A stretch of DNA of 64,000 nt from Planctomycetia bacterium. Lineage in GTDB: Bacteria > Planctomycetota > UBA8108 > UBA1146. How positions within the stretch are numbered: the stretch's first letter is position 1; each line of letters begins with the position of its first letter. The notes under the pieces were generated by a model that saw only the letters and a list, made by a program, of their open reading frames with translations, did not search any database and was not told the origin of the DNA. Location of the stretch: assembly GCA_012269595.1 (NCBI GenBank), contig JAAXJX010000005.1, positions 1 to 64,000 of the forward strand, given 5' to 3'. A program made the translations under genes and the position numbers. This document shows, one piece after another, positions 2,562-16,861 of this stretch.

Positions 2562-3743
2562 TCACCCTTTCATGGGGGGCAGCTCCTTGAGGATGCAGGC
2601 CTCAATCTGACGCCCTCTTCTGAGCAGTGCGAGAATCCACGGCCCCGGGTCTCCCTTGAAGCGTTTGATCAACTGTGAGGGGTTTTCCTGCACCCCCCGG
2701 GTTTTGATGCTTGCAGGTGCACACCCCTGTTGGCGAAACCAGTCGACGACTTTCTTTTCGTGCCATCCCATCCGGGCGACCACTCCAAAACTGCGAAACC
2801 AGGGGCTGGTTCTTTCTTCTTCTCCGGCGAGCCAGCCGAGGCCGGGGTGCCATTCACCGGCAGCAACTTCTCCCTGAACCTTGCACACCAATCCGGAGCG
2901 CTCGATGACGGAACAGGGTTCATGCAGAAAGGCGGGATTTTTCAAGCTGCTCTGTTGAAGAAGTTCCTGTTCACCGCTGATTGTCAGGGATTGGCGCAGA
3001 AGCGTTGCACTGCGTCTGGCTGATTGCGCAAGGTCTCCACACCACAGTGTGGCTTCGACGAGGTCGTTGCCATCCTGAAGCCACTCGATCTCACCGGGAG
3101 GTAATTCCTCGACCGAAATACCGGGGCCGCACTTCAATGCTACGGAATGATGCCTCTCGATCAGACTTTTCAGTATTTCAGGTCCCGGCACCATTCCTTC
3201 AAAGTCGTGAACCCGGCGGCCATCGACGCGTCTTGCGGGATCGACATGCAATGGCAGGGGGGGGAGGGGCAGGCACTTTGCGTCCGCAACGAGAGGGTGT
3301 GAATCGATGGGCTCCTTCGACGACTGGCCCAGATTGAAGCGGGTCAATTCGACACGCACCGGATCATGGTCGACGTAGATCACAGGCCCGGATCGGGCGA
3401 GAGCTGCCGAGTCACTGCCGATTCCGCAACAGAGGTCGATGACTGTATCAGAGCCGATGGCGGATCGCATTCTCTGCGCCTTGTGCTCGGCGACGGTCGT
3501 TCGGGTGGCTTGCTCCATGCCTTCACGATCCATCAGCCATGTTTGGGAATCCCGAAGCCGGCCCCGGGAACGGCGGCGAGCCTCAAGGGCTTCGAGGACC
3601 ACGGAGACCTCTTCGAGAGAGCCATGTTTTCTCAACCGTGAGATGGCGGCAACGTCACCCTGGGGGGTGTCCCGCGCCATCTGGAGCAGGGAATCGAGTT
3701 GACCCGAGATCAGTTTTTGCCAGATATCCCTCATGGATTCCAT
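2562..3743 (-). CDS. SAM-dependent methyltransferase with THUMP-like C-terminal domain
   Basis: About 393 residues. A class I methyltransferase core is visible: VIDLCCGIGSDSAALA (SAM loop), VIYVDHDP (acidic ribose contact), then HVDPARRVDGRRV in place of a catalytic loop. This DPARR pattern is typical of the bacterial methyltransferase family with a THUMP-like C-terminal domain. The last 100 or so residues fit that domain. The substrate is not known; RNA is likely by family resemblance. The reading frame is open back to 3839, but that longer start would cross the operator and promoter at 3802-3836. The ATG pair at 3743/3734 is therefore preferred. It is divergent from the porin-like gene and could share the regulatory region. 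Confidence 0.72.
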   Translation of the reverse strand: MESMRDIWQKLISGQLDSLLQMARDTPQGDVAAISRLRKHGSLEEVSVVLEALEARRRSRGRLRDSQTWLMDREGMEQATRTTVAEHKAQRMRSAIGSDTVIDLCCGIGSDSAALARSGPVIYVDHDPVRVELTRFNLGQSSKEPIDSHPLVADAKCLPLPPLPLHVDPARRVDGRRVHDFEGMVPGPEILKSLIERHHSVALKCGPGISVEELPPGEIEWLQDGNDLVEATLWCGDLAQSARRSATLLRQSLTISGEQELLQQSSLKNPAFLHEPCSVIERSGLVCKVQGEVAAGEWHPGLGWLAGEEERTSPWFRSFGVVARMGWHEKKVVDWFRQQGCAPASIKTRGVQENPSQLIKRFKGDPGPWILALLRRGRQIEACILKELPPMKG

Positions 3744-3801: not shown

Positions 3802-3817
3802 GTTTGGCTTGCCAAAC
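3802..3817. promoter_or_regulatory. Palindromic operator 1 (probable DtxR-family site)
   Basis: GTTTGGCTTGCCAAAC is a near-perfect 16-bp inverted repeat between the methyltransferase and porin-like genes. Two closely related copies lie at 5188-5203 and 11577-11592; the third is directly upstream of a DtxR-family regulator gene. The right half of this copy overlaps a plausible -35 element (TTGCCA, 3809-3814). Binding would therefore block transcription of the porin-like gene. The assignment to the regulator is an inference from position and repetition. Confidence 0.75.
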
Positions 3818-3909: not shown

Positions 3910-5064
3910 ATGCCTTCGAACGAAGTGATCTGCACCAGAATCACACTTTTGGTCTCTGTTCTGGCTTTGACTCTGTCCAGTTCTGGAGCTCTCGAAGCCC
4001 AGGTCGACCGTTACGACAATCGTCCCGCGGCAGAAGGAGATCGGGATATTCGCCTGGGGGGATATCTGGATCTTGAGTTGTTCATGAACAGCGATCGTCT
4101 CGATTTCAAACAGCATCGGCTGGTTCCGATGCTGGATGCGAACATCAGCGAAAATGTGAGTTTCTCCGCCGAAATCGAATTCGAATATGGAGGTGCCAGC
4201 GCCCCCAGAGGTGATGGTGAAACCAAAGTTGAATACGCCTACGCCGATGTGGATTTTGGTGGTTGGACTCTGCGAAGCGGAGCGATTCTGGTTCCTCTGG
4301 GATCGACCAATCTTTATCACGACTCGCCGATGCGTCAGTTGACGAATCGTCCCTTTGTCGCACGTTCGATTGTTCCTTCTACATTGACCAGTGCCGGTCT
4401 GGGCGGAGTCTGGGGGGCGGATGATGGAACTTGGGGAATGGAGTTCTATGCGGTCAACGGTTTTCAGGGTGAAGACGGTGCCGGTGGATACAACTTCAAT
4501 AATTCCAGTGGTATTCGGGGTGGGCGTCCCAGCCTGAAAACCAACATGGGGGATCGCCCCGCCAGTTTTGTGGGACGTTTCACCTACAGCCCGGTACTCG
4601 GAACCGAAATCGGATTCTCGAATTGGACTGGCCCCTGGGATGATGCCGGTGACCTCGATCTGAATATTACCGTCATCGATATCACGACAGATCTGGGCAG
4701 CTGGGTTGAGGCAGTGGGGGCGACGATCCTGAACTTTGAGATGGGTAATGTCTCCATCGACCGCGACGCAGCTGCGATCGCCGGCGGAGTTCCCGACGAT
4801 ATCAGCGCAACTTCCATCGAAGTCTCCAAAAAGTTCTTCCCGGATTTCGTCACCAACCTGTGGGGGGATGATTCCTCCTGTGCTGTGACGATCCGTTGGG
4901 AAGAGCAGGATCTCACCGGCCCGGTGACCAACCGCATGACTTACGGCTTCAACATGCGACCGACGGATGAGACGGTTCTCAAATTCGACTACGAGCAGGA
5001 GTCGATCGAGGGTTCAGAGGACCCCGACGGAACCTTCATCTTCTCCGCTGCGACCTACTTCTAG
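3910..5064 (+). CDS. Outer-membrane porin-like beta-barrel protein
   Basis: A 384-residue exported protein. A signal peptide (TRITLLVSVLALTLSSSGAL core, cleavage near ALEAQ) is followed by alternating polar/hydrophobic strands and a terminal phenylalanine (SAATYF), as expected for an outer-membrane barrel. Strand patterns such as RLGGYLDLELF and a conserved PLGSTNLYHDSP turn resemble the OprP/OprO-type porin superfamily. The ATG at 3910 follows GAGAGGAAACGAAAGA; longer in-frame starts would begin in the operator. Operator 1 lies 93 bp upstream, so the gene is probably iron-regulated together with the feoB operon. A role in passage of iron or a small chelate across the outer membrane is an inference. 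A strong hairpin follows at 5074-5105. Confidence 0.75.
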   Translation: MPSNEVICTRITLLVSVLALTLSSSGALEAQVDRYDNRPAAEGDRDIRLGGYLDLELFMNSDRLDFKQHRLVPMLDANISENVSFSAEIEFEYGGASAPRGDGETKVEYAYADVDFGGWTLRSGAILVPLGSTNLYHDSPMRQLTNRPFVARSIVPSTLTSAGLGGVWGADDGTWGMEFYAVNGFQGEDGAGGYNFNNSSGIRGGRPSLKTNMGDRPASFVGRFTYSPVLGTEIGFSNWTGPWDDAGDLDLNITVIDITTDLGSWVEAVGATILNFEMGNVSIDRDAAAIAGGVPDDISATSIEVSKKFFPDFVTNLWGDDSSCAVTIRWEEQDLTGPVTNRMTYGFNMRPTDETVLKFDYEQESIEGSEDPDGTFIFSAATYF

Positions 5065-5187: not shown

Positions 5188-5203
5188 GTTTGGGTTGCCA
5201 AAC
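5188..5203. promoter_or_regulatory. Palindromic operator 2 (probable DtxR-family site)
   Basis: GTTTGGGTTGCCAAAC differs from operator 1 at one position and shares both arms with operator 3. It is 80 bp upstream of the start of the FMN-binding/ApbE fusion gene that heads the feoB operon. TTGCCA in its right half can serve as the -35 box, as in operator 1. Confidence 0.75.
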
Positions 5204-5282: not shown

Positions 5283-6899
5283 ATGAGCCGCGTTTCCTGC
5301 AGTGATTTCAGCACGCATTCCGAAGAGATCCGCGAGTCGCGGGTCTGCTTCCGGTACCGCGGGTTGGTTGCGGGTTTGCTCTTGGTTCTGACGGTTTCTT
5401 CCCAGGCACTGGCCCTTGGTCCGGTTGCTTCTGAGCCCGTCTCCTCTGAGACAGGTGTTTCGACTGAGACGACGCTCCCCGAAAAGACCTCCGGCTTCTT
5501 CAGCAGAGATCTGATCGCAGATCTTTGGAGTGCGGATGTCCACGTTGAGCGCTGTCATGTTCCGGTCGAAGGGGAAGTGAAGAAGAAGATCGTTGAGATC
5601 AGCAGGGTGAGAACCAGGGACCAACAGACCACCCTGTTCCGGGTCACCTCTCCCCAAGGTAACAGACTGGGATCAGTGGTGATCCTCGATGAGGTCGGGA
5701 AGTATCGTCCCATTACTTTCTTTGTTGCCCTCGACAATGATCGTCGCGTCCTTGATCTTCAGGTTCTCGTTTACCGGGAGCACATCGGTCAGGAGATTGA
5801 ATCACCGCGCTTCACACGACAGTTCAGAAATAAAAAACTGGGCAAGTCGCTGAAGCTCCACCGCGGAATCAGAAACCTTTCCGGAGCCACTCTTTCTGCC
5901 CGTGCAGCTGTTCGTGCAGTGCGAAGATCGATAGCGACCGTTGAGGTTTCGCAGGAACAGAATCTGGCTCTGGTTTGGCAAGCTCTTTCCGGCTCCTCTC
6001 TGGCTTACGGTGAACCTGCCTCGGCAGAACCGGTTACCGCTGCGGGCCCTGAGGAAGTTTCGATACTCCGATCAGGGATGGAAGAAAAAGATGCTTCTGT
6101 TGAGAGGGCTCGTCCCGCCATGGGGACCGTCCTCAAGATGGAGGTCTATGGAGAGCAGGCTCTCAAGGCTGTGGAAGCCGCTTATTCTGAGGTAGAGCGC
6201 CTGGAATCGTTGCACAGCCGCTGGAAAGCGGGGAGTGACGTCCTGAGGGTAGAAGCTGCACCTGTGGGAGAGCCGGTCAAAGTTGCCCGGGAAACTGTCG
6301 AGGTCGTCGAAAAAGCACTCGCCATGTCCAGAGAGAGTGGGGGAGCTTTTGATCTGACCCTGAAGAAGGACGGCTTCCGCAGCGTCAAGGTGGATCGGGA
6401 AAAGGGGACGATCACCCTGTTGCGTCCCGGTCTGATTCTCGATTTGGGTGGAATCGGCAAAGGCTATGCCCTCGATCGTGCGGCGGTCGTACTTGAGTCT
6501 CACGGCTGCTCCCGTGCTCTCCTCGATTTCGGAGGCCAACTGTTGGCACTCGATCCGCCTCCCGGTGAAAAATCCTGGGCAGTAGGGATCCATGACCCCA
6601 GGGATGGCAAGTCTGTCCTCCATGAGCTGTCACTGATTCGCTCCTCACTGGCGACCACTGCCTGCTATGAACGCGGGGATCACCTGGTGCAACTTCTCGA
6701 CAATCCTTCACAGGGACGTATCCTGACCACTTCGGTTCTTTCCAACAGTGCCACCGAGGCGGATGCCTTGAGCACCACTGTTGCTCTTCTCGGACAAGAG
6801 GGAGCACGAGCGATTCTGGATAACTGCCCAAATGCTTCTGCAGTGATTCTGGTTGAGGGTGAGAGCCAGCCACGTTTTGTCGGGCGCATTCAGCGCTGA
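5283..6899 (+). CDS. Exported FMN-binding domain fused to ApbE flavinyltransferase
   Basis: 538 residues. A hydrophobic segment (GLVAGLLLVLTVSSQALAL) near residues 25-45 directs export. Residues about 120-215 look like an FMN_bind domain as in RnfG/NqrC and end in SGATLS at 200-205; in that family the Thr of SGAT carries covalent FMN. Residues about 275-535 are an ApbE domain: RPAMGT, LDLGGIGKGYALD, ALLDFGGQLLAL and SATEADALST are all present. ApbE attaches FMN from FAD to such threonines, so this protein probably flavinylates itself or partners outside the cytoplasm. The ATG at 5283 follows AAGAGGAAGAAG; earlier in-frame codons overlap operator 2. It leads the operon with feoB 46 bp downstream, which suggests flavin-based electron transfer tied to iron uptake. 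Confidence 0.88.
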   Translation: MSRVSCSDFSTHSEEIRESRVCFRYRGLVAGLLLVLTVSSQALALGPVASEPVSSETGVSTETTLPEKTSGFFSRDLIADLWSADVHVERCHVPVEGEVKKKIVEISRVRTRDQQTTLFRVTSPQGNRLGSVVILDEVGKYRPITFFVALDNDRRVLDLQVLVYREHIGQEIESPRFTRQFRNKKLGKSLKLHRGIRNLSGATLSARAAVRAVRRSIATVEVSQEQNLALVWQALSGSSLAYGEPASAEPVTAAGPEEVSILRSGMEEKDASVERARPAMGTVLKMEVYGEQALKAVEAAYSEVERLESLHSRWKAGSDVLRVEAAPVGEPVKVARETVEVVEKALAMSRESGGAFDLTLKKDGFRSVKVDREKGTITLLRPGLILDLGGIGKGYALDRAAVVLESHGCSRALLDFGGQLLALDPPPGEKSWAVGIHDPRDGKSVLHELSLIRSSLATTACYERGDHLVQLLDNPSQGRILTTSVLSNSATEADALSTTVALLGQEGARAILDNCPNASAVILVEGESQPRFVGRIQR

Positions 6900-6945: not shown

Positions 6946-8886
6946 ATGAACCAAGAACAATCCGGTAAAACACTCCGCATCTCTGTTACCGGAAATCCCA
7001 ACGTTGGAAAGTCCACCCTCTTCAATGCCCTTGTGACGGGGAATGCCAGAGTCTCGAACTTTCCCGGGATCACAGCGGAATCGCTGGTGGGTGAGGATCG
7101 CTGGGGGGACATCGATGTGGAGGTCACGGACCTCCCCGGGTGCTACGGCCTGCAACTGGACCTTCCCGAATCCCGTCACTGCCAACAACATTTGGGGGCC
7201 TCCCAAAAGCCCGACTTGCTCGTCAGTGTGATTGATGCGGTCAGCCTGCGCAGAAACATGAACCTGTTGGCGGAGTGTCTGCAAAAAGGAACGCACAATG
7301 CGGTCATTGTGACCCGAACCGATGAAGCACGACTCCGGGGTGTGGAGATCGACTTCCAGCGGTTGGAGGAGCTGCTTCAGGTTCCTGTATTGGAACTGGC
7401 GCATCGGCATGCACACCGAAATGCAGCCCTCAAGGAATTTATTCTGGCTGCGGCAGAGCGGCCCGTAAGTACTCAGGATACGGTTCTCGATTCGAAGTGG
7501 GTCGATGATACGGTCGCAGCGGTGACACGCCCCGTTCGACCGGAGGAAGCCAAAAAGCGAAGAGAGAAGGAGGATCGCCTCGATCGATTCCTGCTTCATC
7601 CCTTCTGGGGGCTTACGACCTTTTTCATCATCATGAGCCTGCTCTTTGGATGTGTGTTCTGGTTGGCCCAGATTCCCATGGAATGGCTCGACAATACCTT
7701 TGCTTTGATCGCGGATTGGGTTTCTGCAAGCATGCCGGAAGGCGAGGTCAGAAGTCTCGTCGTCGAGGGAATCATCGGTGGAGTATCGGGTACGCTGATT
7801 TTCCTGCCTCAGGTTTTGCTGCTGTTTTTCCTCATTAGTGTTTTGGAGGAAACCGGTTATCTGGCCCGTGCTGCATTGGTTGCGGATCGTTGGCTGAGAC
7901 CGTTCGGCCTGCCTGGGCATTCCTTTGTTCCCTTGTTGTCGAGTCACGCTTGCGCCATTCCAGGAATTCTGTGCACGCGTTTGATTCCGGATCGCAAGGA
8001 TCGTCTGGCAGCGATTCTGGTTGCTCCATTCCTCTCTTGTGCAGCAAGATTGCCGGTATACCAGCTGCTGGTAGGGTTGCTCTTTCCTGAAAAACCCTTC
8101 ATTGCCGGATTGGCTTTTGCCGGGTGTTACCTGCTGGGAGCATTGGCAGCGGTCTTCAGTGCCTGGATAGTTCGGCGTTTCCTGTTGCCCGGGCCCAGTC
8201 CCGATCTGGTTCTCGAGATGCCTCCCTTTCAGCGACCGTCATTGCTGGACTCCCTGAAAATCGCCTGCCAGCGAGGTTGGCTCTTCCTGAAAAATGCGGG
8301 AACCGTCATTTTGCTGATGTGCATCGTTCTCTGGTGGTTGGGAACCTATCCCAAGAGCACGGAGAGTTCTGCTGTCGCCGAGTTGCGAGCCAAAGCTGCA
8401 GCAGTGGAATCTGTGGAGGAAGCGGAAGCCCTCGTCGAGGAGGCGGACTCTCTCGCTTCCCGAGAGAGTACCGCCGCTTCCTATCTGGGTCGTATCGGCA
8501 AGAGTGTGGAGCCGGTGTTTGCACCTATCGGAGCCGACTGGCAATTGTCGATTTCGATCATGGCCAGTTTTGCCGCCAGGGAAGTTTTTGTGTCTTCAAC
8601 CAGTGTTCTATTGGGAACTGGTGAAGAGGCAGAGGCGGAACCTTTGATGGACAAGATCAGAAACTCCAGACGGGATGATGGTTCGCCTCTTTTGACGCCC
8701 TCGTCGGCTGCTGGATTGTTGGTCTTTTTCGTGCTGGCAATGCAATGTCTGCCGACGCTTGCGGTCACTCGCAAGGAGTCCGGGGCATGGAAGTGGGCGA
8801 TCCTTCAGTTGACATGGATGAGCCTTCTGGCATGGGGCATGGCTGCGGCCATGCGCATGTTGATTCTGCTTCTCGGGTGGGAGTGA
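6946..8886 (+). CDS. feoB: Ferrous iron transporter FeoB
   Basis: A 646-residue inner-membrane Fe(II) transporter. The N-terminal G domain shows GNPNVGKST (G1, residues 16-24), an SNFPGIT switch I and DLPGCYG (G3). The G4 position reads TRTD instead of the usual N-x-x-D, which could weaken guanine specificity. The membrane part has the FeoB gate-type segments, including LSSHACAIPGI and LSCAARLPVY. A charged soluble insert interrupts the membrane domain at about residues 480-530. ATG 6946 is favoured over the adjacent GTG 6943 because an AGGGGG ribosome site is then better spaced. It belongs to the operon starting at operator 2 and precedes its small Cys-rich partner. FeoA is encoded separately at 11117-11419. 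Confidence 0.96.
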   Translation: MNQEQSGKTLRISVTGNPNVGKSTLFNALVTGNARVSNFPGITAESLVGEDRWGDIDVEVTDLPGCYGLQLDLPESRHCQQHLGASQKPDLLVSVIDAVSLRRNMNLLAECLQKGTHNAVIVTRTDEARLRGVEIDFQRLEELLQVPVLELAHRHAHRNAALKEFILAAAERPVSTQDTVLDSKWVDDTVAAVTRPVRPEEAKKRREKEDRLDRFLLHPFWGLTTFFIIMSLLFGCVFWLAQIPMEWLDNTFALIADWVSASMPEGEVRSLVVEGIIGGVSGTLIFLPQVLLLFFLISVLEETGYLARAALVADRWLRPFGLPGHSFVPLLSSHACAIPGILCTRLIPDRKDRLAAILVAPFLSCAARLPVYQLLVGLLFPEKPFIAGLAFAGCYLLGALAAVFSAWIVRRFLLPGPSPDLVLEMPPFQRPSLLDSLKIACQRGWLFLKNAGTVILLMCIVLWWLGTYPKSTESSAVAELRAKAAAVESVEEAEALVEEADSLASRESTAASYLGRIGKSVEPVFAPIGADWQLSISIMASFAAREVFVSSTSVLLGTGEEAEAEPLMDKIRNSRRDDGSPLLTPSSAAGLLVFFVLAMQCLPTLAVTRKESGAWKWAILQLTWMSLLAWGMAAAMRMLILLLGWE

Positions 8887-8892
8887 GGATCC

Positions 8893-9012
8893 ATGTTTGA
8901 ATCCGATCCCCAATTCTGGATCGTGACTCTCGTCGCAGTTGTCTCTCTCCTGTTGCTGGTCCGGAAGCGGAGCCGCACGTCCGGCGGAGATTGTGGACCC
9001 TGCTCCAAATAG
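8893..9012 (+). CDS. FeoB-associated Cys-rich small membrane protein
   Basis: A 39-residue ORF begins six bases after feoB ends. It has one transmembrane helix (FWIVTLVAVVSLLLLV) followed by a basic stretch and a C-terminal DCGPCSK tail. A short single-helix protein ending in a Cys-x-x-Cys-type tail directly after feoB matches the FeoB-associated Cys-rich family found in many bacteria. It may bind iron or assist the transporter; its role is not established. No strong ribosome site was seen beyond GAGTGAGGAT at the feoB stop, which suggests coupled translation. Confidence 0.8.
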   Translation: MFESDPQFWIVTLVAVVSLLLLVRKRSRTSGGDCGPCSK

Positions 9013-9105
9013 GACCCTGCCAATTTATTTCACTGTGGTATCTTTGTTTTCAGTTTGATCCAAGGATGTGGATCGACCGGAAGGTCAAAATTGGAAGGGT
9101 ATCCC

Positions 9106-10275
9106 ATGATTCCTCGTCTTCGTCGATACGGGACCGTTTGTCTCGTAATCGCTTTTATGCTGTCGGGTCCGGCAGTGGCTTTCTCTTCTTCTCCCGATTC
9201 GGTGGGGGTCGCAGACGAAAAGATGGAAGCGGCCGCTGAAAAGGCATTTGAAGAGATCAACAAAAAAATGAGCGAGGCTCAGGAGGCTTATTACAAGCCG
9301 CTGACTGAGGCTCGGGAAAAAGGTCTCAGCGATAAAGAGATGGAGAAGATCGAACTCGATCCGGAACTCGATCCCGTAATGGTGGTGGGCCCGGAGATGC
9401 TCAAAACCATCGACAAGTATGCGGGAACAGATGCAGCCCTCGGTGCTTGCGACCAAATGCTGGCTTTGGCTGGCAGAAGTGAATCTGCCGGCTGGATGGC
9501 TGAAAAGGTCATGTCGGCGCTCAAGGCTCACTACCTAAAGAACGAGAAGCTGGTCGACGTCTTGCGCTACTCCCATTACTGCTCCGAAGCCATGGCGCCA
9601 GCCATGTGTGATTTTCTCAGTGTGGTCGTCAGTGAGTCTCCTCACAGGGAAGTTCAGGCCGCAGGCTGTTACTCTCTTGCCAAGATCAAGGGCAAGAAAG
9701 AAGAGACACGCAGTGAAGGCCTGGCTCTGCTCAAAAAGGTTCAGGATGAGTATGGAGATGTTTCTTACGGGAGATCCGTTTATGCCGACAAGGTCAAGGG
9801 CGACCTCTTCGAAATGAAGAATCTTCAGGTCGGTTGTGTCGCACCTGAAATCATTGGCAAGGAGATCTCCGGCAAGTTGATGCAGCTGTCCTCTTTCCGC
9901 GGAAAGGTGATCCTGCTTGATTTCTGGGGTGATTGGTGAGGTCCCTGCAGGGCCATGTACCCACACGAGCGGTCGCTCGTGGAGAAATACTCTGCAGATC
10001 CTTTTGCCATCGTCGGAATCAACTCGGATTCCTCCATCGAAAAAGCCCGTGAAGTGGTCGAGAAAAACAAGATCAACTGGCTCAGCTTTTATGATGGGAG
10101 TCCAGGTGGACCCATTTCAACACGCTGGAATGTGACCGGTTGGCCGACGATCTACCTGATCGATGCCAAGGGAATCATTCGTTACAAGGATGTCCGTGGC
10201 AAAGAAATGGATGACGCCATCGAGTTGCTGGTTCAGGAAGCGAAAGCCGAACAGGCCGCTGAAAAGAGCAAGTAA
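9106..10275 (+). CDS. Exported TlpA-like thioredoxin, probable selenoprotein (UGA = Sec278)
   Basis: Two frames separated only by an in-frame TGA (9937-9939) together form one 389-residue thioredoxin-family protein. A signal peptide (VCLVIAFMLSGPAVAF) is followed by a helical region and a C-terminal thioredoxin fold. The active site reads LLDFWGDW, then UGA, then GPCRAMYPHE. The stop codon thus sits exactly at the first Cys of the canonical W-C-G-P-C motif, while Cys281 remains. A hairpin with a GGUC loop lies 25 bases downstream, as expected for a bacterial SECIS. The fold continues past the stop without a frame change: GINSD, WNVTGWPTIYLID (cis-Pro) and a final helix. ATG 9106 follows GGAAGGG. 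It closes the feoB operon and is followed by a terminator. A redox role in iron or disulfide handling outside the cytoplasm is inferred. Confidence 0.88.
9964..9981 (+). promoter_or_regulatory. Candidate bacterial SECIS hairpin
   Basis: CACGAGC (9964-9970) pairs perfectly with GCTCGTG (9975-9981), leaving a GGTC tetraloop. The loop begins 32 bases after the UGA at 9937-9939, inside the spacing usual for SelB-dependent SECIS elements. From memory, the E. coli fdhF SECIS also presents a GGUC apical loop. The element lies inside the coding region, as is normal in bacteria. Confidence 0.7.
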
Positions 10276-10301
10276 AGCCACGCATTCTCATGCGACATGG
10301 A

Positions 10302-10979
10302 TTATCCCGGGGAATCTTCTGAGGAAGGTTTCCCGGGATTTTTTTGATCCGATCCAAAGCCCATGGGGCAGCTACTCGAGTCAGGCTTGCCCGAGTCTGT
10401 TTTGTCCGAGGATTTGGCAGGAAAGAGCGGGTTTGATGCCGGAGGGTCGGCCTTGCCCGCCCGGTTTCTTCGGCGAGGGGCCCACCACAGCTCGTCGAGG
10501 CACGCCAAAGATCCCAGTACCAGACTGAGCAAAAGAAGGCTTCCACCGATGATCTGGGTGAAGAGTGCCAGTGAACTTCCGGAAGCAATGGCGAGGGGTG
10601 AGAAGAGCAACCCGACAAGACTTCCAAATCCTGTGAAGGAGAGGGTGACCTTGACCCCAGTCGACCAGGGAGTCAGTTCAAACAGGTGCAGGACAACGAA
10701 GAGCAACATTCCCAGAGAGAAGATATGGTCATGAATAAAGGAAAGCAGTTCCCTGGGAGTTTTTTCGGACATCAACTCTTCAGCATCGAGGTCGTCCTCA
10801 TTGCCCAGAACCCATTCGCGGGCATTGTCGACAGAAAATCCTCCTGCACTGCTGGAGTACTGAACTGCAGCAACGACACAGCCAGCGAGGACGGTCAGAA
10901 AAAAGAGCGTCAGGAGCCAACGGGTGGAGGTGTTGGAGCGAGCGAGGGTAAATCCGGACTGCTTGTAAAATCGGGTCAT
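10302..10979 (-). CDS. Four-helix membrane protein, possible cytochrome b-like
   Basis: A 225-residue protein with about four membrane helices: WLLTLFFLTVLAGCVVAAV, SFIHDHIFSLGMLLFVVLHL, a Gly-rich third and a Leu-rich fourth helix. The C-terminus is a polar, low-complexity tail. Helix 2 carries two histidines at its start (FIHDH) and one near its end (LHLF), which could ligate heme; this is a structural guess, not a family assignment. ATG 10979 follows GTGAAGG; a GTG start at 10991 is the alternative. It lies inside the iron block, convergent with the selenoprotein gene, but no palindromic operator was found upstream. A membrane electron carrier serving iron reduction is one possibility. I do not recognise the family. 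Confidence 0.6.
   Translation of the reverse strand: MTRFYKQSGFTLARSNTSTRWLLTLFFLTVLAGCVVAAVQYSSSAGGFSVDNAREWVLGNEDDLDAEELMSEKTPRELLSFIHDHIFSLGMLLFVVLHLFELTPWSTGVKVTLSFTGFGSLVGLLFSPLAIASGSSLALFTQIIGGSLLLLSLVLGSLACLDELWWAPRRRNRAGKADPPASNPLFPAKSSDKTDSGKPDSSSCPMGFGSDQKNPGKPSSEDSPG
10304..10345 (+). terminator. Rho-independent terminator of the feoB/selenoprotein operon
   Basis: ATCCCGGG (10304-10311) pairs with CCCGGGAT (10332-10339) and is followed by a run of T to 10345. It lies about 30 bp after the selenoprotein stop codon. The left arm overlaps the stop codon and last codons of the convergent membrane-protein gene. Confidence 0.8.
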
Positions 10980-11116
10980 GTCAGCCTTCACCCACCCTGT
11001 TCAACCCTGAAAATCAACACTGGAATGCAGACTGCGAAATGCAGACTACTTTGCGGCTGTAAAAACAGTGAATCAGATTTGTGAAAGGAAAGCGTGTTCA
11101 AGGAAGGAAATCTGGA

Positions 11117-11419
11117 TCAACTGTCCAGAGGGAGAACCCGGAGAGAAGAGGCAATCTCTTCACTGAGTCCCACCCGTTGACCGTCGATCTCCAGAATACA
11201 GGAACCGGAATTGTGACAAACCCGGAGTTCACAATCCCCGCACATGCCCATCGCTTCCAAGAGGGGGCGCTGATTCTGGGGAATCGACTCTTCCACCAGG
11301 CGCCCCCGATCTCCCAGTTTCATGTCGAAGAGTGATCTGACCTGAACAGACGTGCTGAGAGCCGCCTGTTCCAGCGAGGGTCGCACACTCTTTTCAGGGC
11401 TGGGGTTGCCGGTTTGCAT
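11117..11419 (-). CDS. feoA: FeoA-domain protein
   Basis: About 100 residues. The FeoA SH3-like fold is visible in the C-terminal three quarters: MKLGDRGRLVEESI, then PLLEAMGMCGDCELRV, where Leu-x-x-MG-hydrophobic-x-x-G is the usual signature, then CILEIDGQRVGLSEEIASSL. FeoA is a small cytoplasmic protein that acts with FeoB in Fe(II) uptake. Two cysteines in MGMCGDC are notable. ATG 11419 is chosen for the TGGAGA ribosome site; the frame stays open to 11482. Unusually, feoA is not adjacent to feoB but is divergent from the dtxR-type gene. Operator 3 lies 158 bp upstream, so it is probably in the same regulon. Confidence 0.88.
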   Translation of the reverse strand: MQTGNPSPEKSVRPSLEQAALSTSVQVRSLFDMKLGDRGRLVEESIPQNQRPLLEAMGMCGDCELRVCHNSGSCILEIDGQRVGLSEEIASSLRVLPLDS

Positions 11420-11544
11420 GGATCTCCAGTTCGAAAGTCCTGAGATGAAGGCCCAAGTGAGCCTCGCAACTTTTACGAGCACTTGTCCTTACGTGAATCG
11501 GGCATTAATCTTCAGATTCAGGAACACAGTGCTCAATAGGCCTA

Positions 11545-11573
11545 TTTTTACATGCTGTTTGAGTGCTCATCAA
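11545..11573 (-). promoter_or_regulatory. Possible feoA promoter
   Basis: Read on the minus strand, TTGATG (11573-11568) and TAAAAA (11550-11545) are 17 bp apart. The -35 box begins three bases from operator 3. The match is moderate and other placements are possible. Confidence 0.3.
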
Positions 11574-11576
11574 CCC

Positions 11577-11592
11577 GTTTGGGTACCCAAAC
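11577..11592. promoter_or_regulatory. Palindromic operator 3 (probable autoregulatory site)
   Basis: GTTTGGGTACCCAAAC is a perfect 16-bp palindrome. It sits between feoA and the DtxR-family gene, ending 17 bp before that gene's start codon and just ahead of its GAGGAGGAGG ribosome site. Operators 1 and 2 share both arms. Position directly at the regulator gene suggests autoregulation plus control of feoA. Confidence 0.8.
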
Positions 11593-11609
11593 AAGAGGAG
11601 GAGGTGCGA

Positions 11610-12167
11610 ATGGATTGGCGAGAGTTCGATCAGAACCCCGTAAGTCATTCCGCTGCCCACCATTTGACGGCGATTCAGCAACTCCTGGAAGATCAGGGGT
11701 ATGCCCGAGTTTCGGATGTCGCCCGAAAACTGGGCATTACCCGCGGAAGTGTTTCCGTCTCCCTCAAGGGACTCCGGCAAAGAGGGCTGGTGGTGGAAGA
11801 CCAGCACAAGCATTTGGGGCTTTCTGATGAAGGCCAGCGGATTGCACGGGGGATTCATACCAAGCGGGTCCTGTTTAAGGCATTTTTGGAAAAATCCCTC
11901 GGCCTGCCTGCGGATCTGGCGGAAATGGACGCCTGCAAGATTGAGCACCTGATCAGTGATCTGACCGCTGAGGCGCTGGCGATCTACATCGATCGAAGAG
12001 AGGATGCTTCAGATTCTTCTTCGGATCGAGACCAGCAAGTGAACGCTCTCGAAGACAGTATCCGTGAAGGCCGGGTTGAGGCGTTCCCGGGAAAAGAGAT
12101 CGAGACCATCTCCGAGCGATTGCAGAGCAGCTCTGAAGAGCAAAGCAAGGATAAAGACGATGAGTGA
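11610..12167 (+). CDS. DtxR-family metal-dependent transcriptional regulator
   Basis: 185 residues. Residues about 12-70 form a winged helix (YARVSDVARKLGITRGSVSV is the recognition region). Residues about 75-140 form the metal-binding/dimerisation domain with DACKIEH at 107-113. In DtxR/IdeR the equivalent Cys, Glu and His are primary metal ligands, while Mn-sensing MntR proteins usually lack the Cys; this favours iron sensing. An acidic 45-residue tail replaces the SH3 domain of classical DtxR. The start ATG follows an exceptionally strong GAGGAGGAGG site. Operator 3 lies immediately upstream. The stop overlaps the ferritin-like gene start by 8 bp. It is the likely repressor of the three-site regulon. 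Confidence 0.92.
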   Translation: MDWREFDQNPVSHSAAHHLTAIQQLLEDQGYARVSDVARKLGITRGSVSVSLKGLRQRGLVVEDQHKHLGLSDEGQRIARGIHTKRVLFKAFLEKSLGLPADLAEMDACKIEHLISDLTAEALAIYIDRREDASDSSSDRDQQVNALEDSIREGRVEAFPGKEIETISERLQSSSEEQSKDKDDE

Positions 12168-12609
12168 ATATTCCCGCGAGGTTGCTCTGAGCCGCCTGAA
12201 TGAATTGTTGGCGGAAGAGTTGGAAGCTTCGATTCGATATTTGCATTTGGGCACACTGGTTCAGGGGATCGACCGATTGGTCATCCAAAAGGTGCTTCAG
12301 GAAAATCATGAAGAAACGGTCGAGCATGCCCAGCAGGTCTCCGAGAAGATTCTTCAGGTGGGGGGAACTCCAAAACCAAAAATCAATCTCGAATTGACGG
12401 GTGAAAAGTGCACGGGTGTCGAAGCTCTTCAGACGGCACTGCTCTTTGAGCAGGCAGCTCTGGATGCTTACAAGGAGTTTCTCGAGGTGGTAGAGGGCAG
12501 TGGAGACGTGGTTCTCGAGGAGTTCGCGCGTCAACAGGTAGCACTGGAGTCTGAGCACGTTTCTGAACTGCGGATGCTTCTCGGGGAAAACGTCGTTGGC
12601 AGCGAGTGA
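12160..12609 (+). CDS. Ferritin-like (bacterioferritin-type) protein
   Basis: A 149-residue four-helix-bundle protein. The N-terminal helix LNELLAEELEASIRYLHLG, then ENHEETVEHAQQVSEKILQ, then EQAALDAYKEFLE and ALESEHVSEL carry the spaced Glu and E-x-x-H residues of a ferritin-like diiron centre. KILQVGGTPKP resembles the bacterioferritin loop. It probably stores or buffers iron. Its start codon overlaps the end of the DtxR-type gene (ATGAGTGA), so the repressor and store are co-translated. Whether it forms a 24-mer or binds heme cannot be judged from sequence alone. Confidence 0.8.
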   Translation: MSEYSREVALSRLNELLAEELEASIRYLHLGTLVQGIDRLVIQKVLQENHEETVEHAQQVSEKILQVGGTPKPKINLELTGEKCTGVEALQTALLFEQAALDAYKEFLEVVEGSGDVVLEEFARQQVALESEHVSELRMLLGENVVGSE

Positions 12610-14007: not shown

Positions 14008-14966
14008 GCAACTCTTCTGAAGTCACCACCGGTGAAGCCATTCGTATCAGCGGCTTGAGTCATCACTTTGGTGAAAAGCAGGCCCTGAAGGACATCGATT
14101 GGGTTCTGCCCCAAAAAGGAATCGTCGGACTGGTCGGGCCCAATGGTGCAGGCAAGACCACACTGTTTTCCCTGATCGCCGGGTTCCTGACTTTGCAGAA
14201 GGGGACGATTTCAGTATTGGGGGAGTCGAGCCCCGTGGCTTCTGCCCTCATGGGTCGAGTGGGCGTCATGCCTCAGGACGCCATCTTCGCCAGGGATATC
14301 TCCATCTTTGATCAACTTCTGTTTCTGTTGAAACTGGATGGTTATCAGGGGGAAGTGGCGGAGCAGCGTGTTCGCGAAGTGATGCAGCGGGTGGGCCTCG
14401 AGACAGAGCTTTTCAGGGGAGCCGCTGTTCTCTCTCATGGAATGGGCAAGAGACTCGGTGTGGCTCAGGCGATCCTCGCCAATCCTGAAATCGTCCTTCT
14501 CGATGAGCCGACAGCCGGCCTCGACCCCGCCAACGCACGTCAGATTCGTCATCTGATGCGGGAGTTGGCGGAAACTTCGCTGGTCATCGTCTCTTCGCAC
14601 AACCTGTTGGAGTTACAGGATCTCATCGATTCGGTCGGCGTGATCGTTGGTGGAGAGTTGATTTCCAGTGGCACCGTGGAAGAGGTCACGCGACGGGCGC
14701 GCCGCTTTGAGATTCACCTCGATGCAAAGGTGGAAGTGGAACTGGTCGTTGAGTTGAAGCAGTTGAGCCACATCAACGAAGTGGAGTTTTCCGACCAGCA
14801 ACTGACGGTCAGTCTGAATGCGGATCAGGAAGATGGCCTCAATGGCGCTCTATCTCAGCTATACCGTTTTCTGATAGAGAAGGGGCTGCCTCCACATGAA
14901 GTGCGTGAAGGTGCGAGCCTCGAGCAGGCCTATCTGAAACTGACGGGGGAAGATCAGTCTTCCTGA
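14004..14966 (+). CDS. ABC transporter ATP-binding protein
   Basis: 320 residues. Walker A GPNGAGKTT, Q-loop VGVMPQD, a modified signature LSHGMGKRLGVAQA (LSGGQ-type), Walker B IVLLDEPTAGLD and switch His in VSSHN are all visible in the first 215 residues. A C-terminal accessory domain of about 90 residues follows, as in ABC-2 drug or polysaccharide exporters. The substitution of the signature glycines by S-H-G-M-G is slightly unusual but tolerated in this class. It ends the dtxR operon and overlaps the convergent Fe-S membrane protein gene by 13 bp. Confidence 0.9.
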   Translation: MSNSSEVTTGEAIRISGLSHHFGEKQALKDIDWVLPQKGIVGLVGPNGAGKTTLFSLIAGFLTLQKGTISVLGESSPVASALMGRVGVMPQDAIFARDISIFDQLLFLLKLDGYQGEVAEQRVREVMQRVGLETELFRGAAVLSHGMGKRLGVAQAILANPEIVLLDEPTAGLDPANARQIRHLMRELAETSLVIVSSHNLLELQDLIDSVGVIVGGELISSGTVEEVTRRARRFEIHLDAKVEVELVVELKQLSHINEVEFSDQQLTVSLNADQEDGLNGALSQLYRFLIEKGLPPHEVREGASLEQAYLKLTGEDQSS

Positions 14967-16861
14967 ATCACTCCTGAAGAGGGTCCCGGGCTGACACTGT
15001 TGGATCGAAGTTGGTTGAGGCGCAGACGCATCTCGTCAACTTCCTGACTCGGGACTGCTGAGTCGAGCAGCCGACCCATGTCATCGATCAAGCCGGGGTT
15101 GGGTCCGATCCACGGAATCAGGGCTTCCAAGTGCAGGGCCGCAGCAAAGTAGCTTCCATTCTGGACAGATGCGGTGGCCTGTTTCTGGGCCAGAATTCCA
15201 CGAAGAGTGACAAGTGGAGGGAGTAACCCCCAGCGATCCCTGGAGGAGTTCAGCCAGTCTGCCAATGCCTTCGGACCATCCTGCTTTTCAATCAGTTGAC
15301 CAAAACGCAACACCAGATCGTGACTTGGTTCGAGGGGTTCATCGAGAGCGCTGCTCCACCATCTTTTGGCCGCAGCGAGATCACCGGATACGGCACTCAT
15401 GTAACCGAGTCGTTCTTCGAGACGGGTTCCCTCCGGTTCAAAGAGGGCGAATCCACCCCGGGTAACAGAGAGTTGTGAGTGTAAAAACCCGAGGGCACTT
15501 TCAGCGGCGGTGATGGCTTCGGCAGGGACCGGAGGTTTCCCTGGCAAAAAGACCTGATCCAGATTGACCGCCGCTTTCTCCATCCATTGGGAGGACTGCT
15601 GGAGGTCCCAACGGGATTTCCCTGCAGAGACCGTCATCGTCAGGCAGAGGAAAGCAGCGACCAGAACCCACTTGCCGGAGGAAGTCCACTTCCCGGATCG
15701 CCGAAGGGGCTGTTGCTGCAGTGAAACATCCTTCTCCTTCAACAACTGAGCTGCTTTCCAACCGAGAAACGTCACCATCAGTGCGATCCCCGTGGCCATC
15801 AGCAGGGGGACTTGCTCGTATACACCTCGCCAACTGAACCAGCTCAGGGCGAACACCAATGCGAGTGCCAGTTCACCACCCCAGGAGAGATGGGATTTGC
15901 GAGCGACCTTTTTTGCTTCAGGGCCATTGCTCGCCAACAGTCCCGGCTTTCCCAAACCAAATGAAAGCACGCTGTTGGGGCAGACATCCACGCAGTCGAG
16001 ACACTTCATACAGCCCGGATCGACGACCTGCTCATGAACACGGATCTCACGGGAGATCTGCACATTGGAGGTGCAATGTGCCGTGCACAATCCACACGAT
16101 TCGCACTTTGACATGTCTGCGACGATGCGCATCGGTGAGACGCGGTCAGCGATATTGAAGAAGGCTCCATAGGGGCAACCATATGTACAGAAACCCTTGG
16201 CCCCCAGCAGGTAGACCACGACGAATCCGCAGATCAGAAAGAATGGAATCGAGACGATGACCGAAGGGAATGTGGCCCAGAAGTCTTCCACGAAAAGGTG
16301 GTTGCTGAATCCTGGCCACGCTTTCACAGGGGCGAACCATGTGGTCACTCCAGGAAGGAAAGATTCAACGATGGGAAACACTTCCCGCTTGAAGGTGGGC
16401 CAGAGAAACATGTAGAAGGCGAGAATGAAGGGGATCAGGGAGAGCAGGCGGCTGCGGAAGGGGCGGGGCGTGATTCCGACCTTTTTCATCATCCAGCCAC
16501 ACAGGTCCTGGAGCGCCACCATGTGACATGCCCAGCCGCAGAACCAGCGGCCCAGTACTGCGGTCGACAAGATGGCGACCACAAAAAAGATGAAGCCCGC
16601 ATTCACCTGACCATTTTCGAGAGTGTACATACTCTCTGAAGGTTCGATGGGGGAGAGGGTGCGTCCCGTGACCCACCAATGAATCAGATGGCCTGCGATG
16701 AGGAGATGGACAAATCCGAGAACCCATGCCCGTCGCTTTCCCGAACGACCTGGGGTCCGGTTTCCGGATCGGCGAAATCCTTCACATCCTGGTTTGGGCT
16801 TGATGTCCCTGGCCAAAGTATTGCTCCCTCTTCTGCTCTCGATCATAACGACTGGGCTCAA
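14954..16861 (-). CDS. NapH/NosR/CcoG-like polyferredoxin membrane protein with long C-terminal extension
   Basis: 635 residues. The N-terminal half has about five membrane helices and the paired motifs GRWFCGWACH and FCTYGCPYGA typical of NapH, NosR and CcoG proteins. Two [4Fe-4S] motifs follow: CESCGLCTAHC and CMKCLDCVDVCP (about residues 260-310). Two or three more helices come next (near 340-380 and 400-420), then an alpha-helical, probably exported domain of about 200 residues with no known catalytic motif. It likely moves electrons between the membrane and an exported acceptor. The fused helical domain is not part of standard NapH or CcoG. It lies next to the iron/flavin block, so it might feed the flavinylated protein at 5283-6899; that is an inference. 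Confidence 0.78.
   Translation of the reverse strand: MSPVVMIESRRGSNTLARDIKPKPGCEGFRRSGNRTPGRSGKRRAWVLGFVHLLIAGHLIHWWVTGRTLSPIEPSESMYTLENGQVNAGFIFFVVAILSTAVLGRWFCGWACHMVALQDLCGWMMKKVGITPRPFRSRLLSLIPFILAFYMFLWPTFKREVFPIVESFLPGVTTWFAPVKAWPGFSNHLFVEDFWATFPSVIVSIPFFLICGFVVVYLLGAKGFCTYGCPYGAFFNIADRVSPMRIVADMSKCESCGLCTAHCTSNVQISREIRVHEQVVDPGCMKCLDCVDVCPNSVLSFGLGKPGLLASNGPEAKKVARKSHLSWGGELALALVFALSWFSWRGVYEQVPLLMATGIALMVTFLGWKAAQLLKEKDVSLQQQPLRRSGKWTSSGKWVLVAAFLCLTMTVSAGKSRWDLQQSSQWMEKAAVNLDQVFLPGKPPVPAEAITAAESALGFLHSQLSVTRGGFALFEPEGTRLEERLGYMSAVSGDLAAAKRWWSSALDEPLEPSHDLVLRFGQLIEKQDGPKALADWLNSSRDRWGLLPPLVTLRGILAQKQATASVQNGSYFAAALHLEALIPWIGPNPGLIDDMGRLLDSAVPSQEVDEMRLRLNQLRSNSVSPGPSSGVIQED

Follow-up and report, generated by a model that had tools for sequence, protein, structure and literature searches.

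A gene that joins an FMN_bind acceptor domain and an ApbE flavin transferase in one chain was found directly in front of feoB in a planctomycete genome. The surrounding locus is probably a metal-regulated module for ferric reduction and ferrous uptake, in which the flavin carrier would flavinylate itself and transcription would be under DtxR-type repression. The analyzed DNA is a stretch of 64,000 nucleotides from Planctomycetia bacterium (contig JAAXJX010000005.1), referred to as the window. The part of this reading that was taken from the sequence comprises the two-domain chain, its conserved active residues, a three-gene unit together with its joint loss, and three operators.

Organization of the locus

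The following features were annotated (window positions, strand, description):

3802–3817, no strand, operator GTTTGGCTTGCCAAAC, roughly 90 bases upstream of the start of the porin, with the same placement in relatives
3910–5064, plus strand, outer-membrane porin with signal peptide and a weak Porin_O_P match (PF07396, 18.1 bits, below cut-off)
5188–5203, no strand, operator GTTTGGGTTGCCAAAC, upstream of the transcription unit of fusion and feoB
5283–6899, plus strand, FMN_bind-ApbE fusion, predicted to be exported, 538 aa
5700–5933, plus strand, FMN_bind domain of the fusion, residues 140–217 (PF04205, 24.4 bits; RnfG chain 7zc6_G, E 2e-6)
5889–5891, plus strand, codon of Thr203, predicted FMN attachment site (threonine in 61 of 61 fusions)
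6096–6854, plus strand, ApbE flavin-transferase domain of the fusion, residues 272–524 approximately (PF02424, 150.6 bits)
6946–8886, plus strand, feoB, ferrous iron transporter (TIGR00437, 381.2 bits, above the cut-off of 315.65)
9106–10275, plus strand, ResA/TlpA-like thioredoxin, probable selenoprotein, read through the TGA at 9937–9939 (Trp-Sec-Gly-Pro-Cys)
10302–10991, minus strand, 4-helix membrane protein in which an HxH motif is invariant; it may supply the fusion with electrons
11117–11482, minus strand, FeoA (PF04023, 24.3 bits, cut-off 23)
11577–11592, no strand, operator GTTTGGGTACCCAAAC, just before dtxR-ferritin
11611–12167, plus strand, DtxR/MntR-family metal-dependent repressor (metal-binding/dimerisation domain PF02742, 41.2 bits, cut-off 27; HTH domain PF01325, 30.8 bits, cut-off 26)
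12160–12609, plus strand, ferritin-like protein (PF00210, 66.4 bits)

The frame at 5283–6899 is free of stop codons and translates into a single chain of 538 residues. Both domains of the product score above the Pfam cut-offs, FMN_bind narrowly (cut-off 22 bits) and ApbE against a cut-off of 25.6 bits. With a family profile, the C-terminal half matched solved ApbE structures (best E-value 2e-57), and RnfG was matched by the N-terminal half with an E-value of 2e-6. The acceptor motif reads S200-G-A-T203-L-S205 and agrees with the [ST]-G-A-T acceptor pattern of FMN_bind. A preliminary description of the locus had reported an SGATLS motif at residues 200–205 and a full ApbE domain in one chain, encoded directly before feoB. 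Both statements were confirmed, the latter by a gap of 46 bases between the stop codon of the fusion and the ATG of feoB at 6946 and by the TIGR00437 match of the feoB product.

The N-terminus of the fusion carries a single hydrophobic segment (residues 27–45, ending in ALA), which is consistent with a signal peptide, and the chain is predicted to be exported from the cytosol. The linker between the two domains has about 45 residues on average in the family and would be long enough for FMN to be transferred inside one chain or from one chain to another. An AlphaFold prediction for the fusion reached a pLDDT of 73 and a pTM of 0.53. In the lineage of the window, the ApbE half lacks about 26 residues that are typically present after GAFDLTL. 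Since intact, full-length copies are present in several dozen of the 392 sampled genomes of the phylum Planctomycetota, covering about 17 families including the anammox Brocadiaceae, the fusion is not a chance product.

Genes associated with the fusion

For the identification of constant partners, the neighbours within 6 kb were compared between 59 fusion loci and 40 loci with a stand-alone ApbE gene from the same phylum. The survey loci were chosen by the fusion alone. Because the neighbour profiles were trained on relatives of the window, the counts of porins and 4-helix proteins in distant lineages are probably too low. A porin belonging to the family of the window's porin was found at 36 of the 59 fusion loci, usually directly upstream, and at one of the 40 controls. 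The 4-helix protein, which is encoded directly downstream in distant lineages, was present at 40 fusion loci and at none of the controls. For feoB, the numbers were 13 of 59 and 0 of 40 (Fisher p 0.0013).

As eight of the 13 feoB-bearing loci belong to the family of the window itself, in which a position next to feoB is typical, the independent evidence for this partner is reduced to five of the 47 loci outside of it, distributed over the families f46, f47, f75 and f79. Some of these five also contain Fur or ferritin, and one further locus, in f93, has Fur alone, so that feoB or fur occurs at six of 47 outside loci compared to none of the 40 controls (p 0.029). By chance, about 0.18 feoB loci would be expected, a rough rate that assumes one to two feoB genes per genome, and the five observed are very unlikely on this basis (around 1e-6). 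In the family tree of the fusion, feoB adjacency is scattered across the branches, the tree being one in which long branches meet. The association with iron genes that had been anticipated for relatives of the locus thus holds, as feoB or fur recurs in five other families. At 41 of the 47 outside loci, no feoB or fur is located within 6 kb; for this reason the general role of the fusion may be something other than iron uptake.

Treating feoB as the core partner was given up once the survey had revealed the porin and the 4-helix protein as more constant. The same result speaks against the earlier proposal of an electron carrier contained in one gene: these two proteins are steadier partners of the fusion than FeoB and were lost together with it. 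A feoB match of 30 bits at locus L178 was discarded, as it belongs to a TrmE-like GTPase.

Several further observations were made at individual fusion loci. Four loci of anammox-type genomes (L171, L180, L182 and L193) contain a second, divergent fusion beside genes for a thioredoxin and an 8-haem cytochrome; L171 also holds a fused FeoA-FeoB, a FeoA-domain protein and a cation-efflux protein, and in L193 a P-type ATPase is encoded near the divergent fusion. Between feoB and the fusion of locus L062 (positions 2768–3565), a FeoA domain is fused to a GGDEF diguanylate cyclase, for which a link of iron to c-di-GMP is possible. In Brocadiae-type lineages, in which the porin often lies apart from the fusion, the gene immediately preceding the fusion is a small lipoprotein-like one without Pfam match (6729–7238 of L189, with relatives in 30 loci).

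Joint loss of porin, fusion and 4-helix gene

The FMN_bind domain is absent from two genomes of the window's family, G009 and G013, which are drafts with many contigs and contain no Ns in either of the stretches concerned. In G013, the porin, the fusion and the 4-helix gene are all missing from a contig of 186 kb, on which the order of feoB, thioredoxin, feoA, dtxR, ferritin and the genes beyond is kept. In G009, one deletion has left an in-frame join between the porin, reduced to its first third, and roughly the final 30 residues of the fusion; the 4-helix gene carries a frameshift. The lost genes are not all adjacent and the Feo genes between them were retained. This joint loss is the best evidence that the porin, the fusion and the 4-helix protein would act as one functional unit. 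It also follows from the retained Feo genes that FeoB can persist without this unit.

Operators and proposed metal control

The comparison of upstream regions across the window's family revealed a 16-base palindrome, GTTTGG-N4-CCAAAC. In the genome of 2.82 Mb exactly three perfect copies were detected, one each in front of the porin, fusion-feoB and dtxR-ferritin, compared to about 0.16 copies expected from the base composition; the reversed pattern has no copy in these 2.82 Mb. Each of the 16 genomes of the family contains 1 to 5 copies and, where the neighbours could be checked, most of them precede a porin, fusion, feoB or dtxR gene, whereas a small number in other places (GTTTGGTGAACCAAAC in G002 and G005) seem to be unrelated. 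In G013, feoB now follows the copy that would otherwise belong to the porin. In G007, a genome without the fusion, the single copy is found before a Porin_O_P gene.

The likely reader of the palindrome is the DtxR-family protein encoded beside it, and repression of the three units by this protein is suggested. The closest NCBIfam models of the regulator are those of MntR, with scores below the cut-off, and manganese is a possible co-repressor in place of iron. Iron is favoured because the units bearing the operator include FeoB and ferritin. Of the iron control that had been proposed for the fusion, DtxR-type metal control is strongly indicated by the three unique operators, whereas we only infer the specificity for iron.

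Proposed mechanism

In the reading preferred here, Fe(III) would enter the periplasm, probably via the upstream porin. The ApbE half of the fusion would take FMN from FAD and attach it to Thr203, either in the same chain or in another copy of the fusion. The 4-helix HxH protein would then feed electrons, probably from the quinol pool, to this FMN, and the flavin of the exported fusion would reduce the periplasmic Fe(III), the resulting Fe(II) being imported by FeoB with FeoA. When metal is plentiful, the DtxR-family protein would repress the porin, fusion-feoB and its own dtxR-ferritin unit via the three operators.

As the main alternative, the unit could conduct electrons outward: from the inner membrane they would pass over the flavinylated fusion and either reach the porin or cross it, and Fe(III) or another acceptor would be reduced extracellularly, in respiration or to dispose of electrons; the feoB link would be a later add-on in some lineages. 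This would account for a porin that is a nearly constant partner while feoB is not, for the 5- and 8-haem cytochrome genes near the fusions of some anammox-type relatives, which mostly have no feoB there, and for a Feo system left intact after loss of the unit. However, the unit of the window shares its operators with a metal regulator and a ferritin, genes for FeoB, Fur and ferritin turn up again beside fusions of unrelated families, and no multihaem cytochrome is encoded in the window locus, so that an outward conduit is considered unlikely here. Both directions could be accommodated by a more general scheme, in which the porin, the self-flavinylating carrier and the HxH protein form a haem-poor flavin pathway across the envelope, widely distributed among Planctomycetota, the anammox bacteria among them, and used for iron uptake in some lineages and for external electron transfer in others; this scheme is put forward as a tentative and rather doubtful generalization.

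Predicted flavinylation of the fusion

Residue conservation was counted over 61 fusions. The attachment of FMN to Thr203 had been predicted from the SGATLS motif, and the prediction passes the comparison, since Thr203 as well as Ser205 is invariant (61/61). Glu166, Gly169, Gln180, Gly354 and Asp357 are invariant too. In the ApbE half, 58 of the 61 sequences retain His467 and 55 retain Asp494; according to a motif alignment with ApbE structures from the PDB these two residues are the equivalents of the catalytic His257 and Asp285 of Vibrio ApbE in PMC12052999. The third catalytic residue, a serine, seems to be a threonine in the genus of the window.

The target motif of ApbE has been described as D-x-x-[ST]-G-A-[ST] (PMC12052999). 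Its aspartate at position -3 never occurs in the 61 members of the fusion family, which have arginine at this position in the window and isoleucine, arginine, valine or leucine, mostly isoleucine, in the relatives. At position -5 an acidic residue is found in 59 of the 61 fusions, and a glycine in the window. As the exchange of Asp for Ala in the target motif of a model protein had only minor effects (PMC12052999), the missing aspartate is a weak argument against flavinylation; it marks a distinct acceptor subclass. The separate acceptor ORF of an acidobacterial locus has the same motif spacing as the fusions, and the shifted acidic position is therefore not restricted to them.

The genome search identified the fusion as the only FMN_bind protein, and DUF2271 and DUF3570 acceptors could not be found in the genome by profile search. 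In the simplest reading, the fusion would be its own flavinylation target. Flavinylation in trans, with the FMN_bind half modified by another ApbE, or with the ApbE half serving other proteins and the fusion being mainly a matter of co-expression, draws on the two further stand-alone ApbE genes of the genome and on Acidobacteria and Omnitrophota, in which acceptor and transferase are encoded by separate adjoining ORFs. It is rather improbable in view of the missing alternative acceptors and of the key residues of both halves, which are conserved together over the 61 fusions.

The 4-helix membrane protein

Four membrane helices and an acidic outer loop are predicted for the protein encoded at 10302–10991. 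His87, His89, Phe91, Phe98 and Lys114 are invariant in 41 of 41 sequences, and a third histidine (position 102) is kept in the window's lineage and replaced by serine in anammox-type members. No Pfam family scored above its cut-off; cytochrome b561 and DUF2871 matched weakly, and DUF4405 (PF14358) matched one of 13 members with an E-value of 2.8. The profile search against the PDB gave no match. The structure model has a mean pLDDT of 71.8, its best Foldseek E-value was 1.1, and VIA-align returned generic helical bundles only.

A paralogue in the same genome, encoded beside another ApbE, combines the same HxH with a CxxCH haem-c motif in the loop, and for this reason the 4-helix protein is taken as a redox protein. 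Its association with the fusion and its histidine pattern suggest that it would pass electrons to the flavin. The paralogue has 257 aa with CxxCH and HxH and belongs to locus L051 (positions 8717–11694, contig C60 of G000), where a stand-alone ApbE is located among Gfo/Idh-type and xylose-isomerase-like genes. At locus L050 (4499–8605, contig C39 of G000), the other ApbE of the genome is encoded near a multihaem cytochrome and a protein similar to sulfatase-modifying factors.

The thioredoxin and further neighbours

The TGA at 9937–9939 is in frame, lies exactly at the first active-site cysteine of the thioredoxin and is retained in 13 of 13 sequences compared. The genome carries a tRNA-Sec (67 bits) and SelB (365 bits), and the ResA/TlpA-like protein is probably a selenoprotein. 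Although it is encoded just after feoB and thioredoxin-like genes are located near some other fusions, it is very unlikely that the flavin electrons go to this selenocysteine thioredoxin or another thiol relay instead of iron, as the thioredoxin gene was kept where the porin, the fusion and the 4-helix gene were lost and is not adjacent in most other lineages.

At 14954–16861 of the window, a NapH-like 4Fe-4S membrane protein with a long C-terminal extension is encoded. Its gene is syntenic beside the locus, also where the flavin unit was lost.

Comparison with known systems

The locus is a compact ferric-reductase candidate for marine and anammox-type planctomycetes and offers a flavin carrier with its own maturation enzyme, an unnamed family of membrane electron donors and a regulator with only three operators in the genome. 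Links between flavinylation and iron transporters as well as eukaryotic fusions of ApbE with its acceptor have already been published. In the open-access literature searched, an FMN_bind-ApbE fusion next to feoB is not described. As far as this literature shows, a bacterial fusion that is predicted to be exported and is encoded beside feoB, its association with the porin and the 4-helix protein, the joint loss of these genes and the set of three operator sites are new.

Flavinylation genes have been described beside VIT1, FTR1/P19 and TonB genes, and iron reduction was proposed for them (Meheust et al., 2021; PMC8238504). The main text of that study contains no feoB, porin, planctomycete or fusion. 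The iron-assimilation clusters reported there, with MsrQ-like, PepSY-like and P19/FTR1 proteins, resemble the locus in their content, which comprises an FMN_bind protein outside the cytosol, ApbE, an iron transporter and an electron-transfer protein of the membrane. In contrast to them, acceptor and transferase form one chain here, and the membrane partner is the unnamed 4-helix HxH protein.

Fusions of ApbE with fumarate reductase are known from the eukaryotes Trypanosoma and Leptomonas (PMC12052999), in which the flavin transferase is likewise joined to the protein that is modified. These fusions are intracellular and have ApbE at the N-terminus of the fumarate reductase, whereas the planctomycete fusion is predicted to be exported, has ApbE at the C-terminus and uses a bare FMN_bind carrier as acceptor.

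With RnfG and NqrC, in which FMN is bound to the threonine of an SGAT motif, the fusion shares the FMN_bind domain. It differs from them by its scores, which stay far below the NCBIfam cut-offs (33.4 of 102 bits for rnfG and 18 of 336 bits for NqrC), by neighbours that include no Rnf or Nqr partner and by the absence of the aspartate at -3. The 4-helix protein finally resembles the flavinylation- and ferrosome-linked cytochromes of the DUF4405/FezC type (PMC10979944) as a small membrane protein with conserved histidines that occurs together with apbE and iron genes, and it is distinguished from these cytochromes by its four helices and one invariant HxH.
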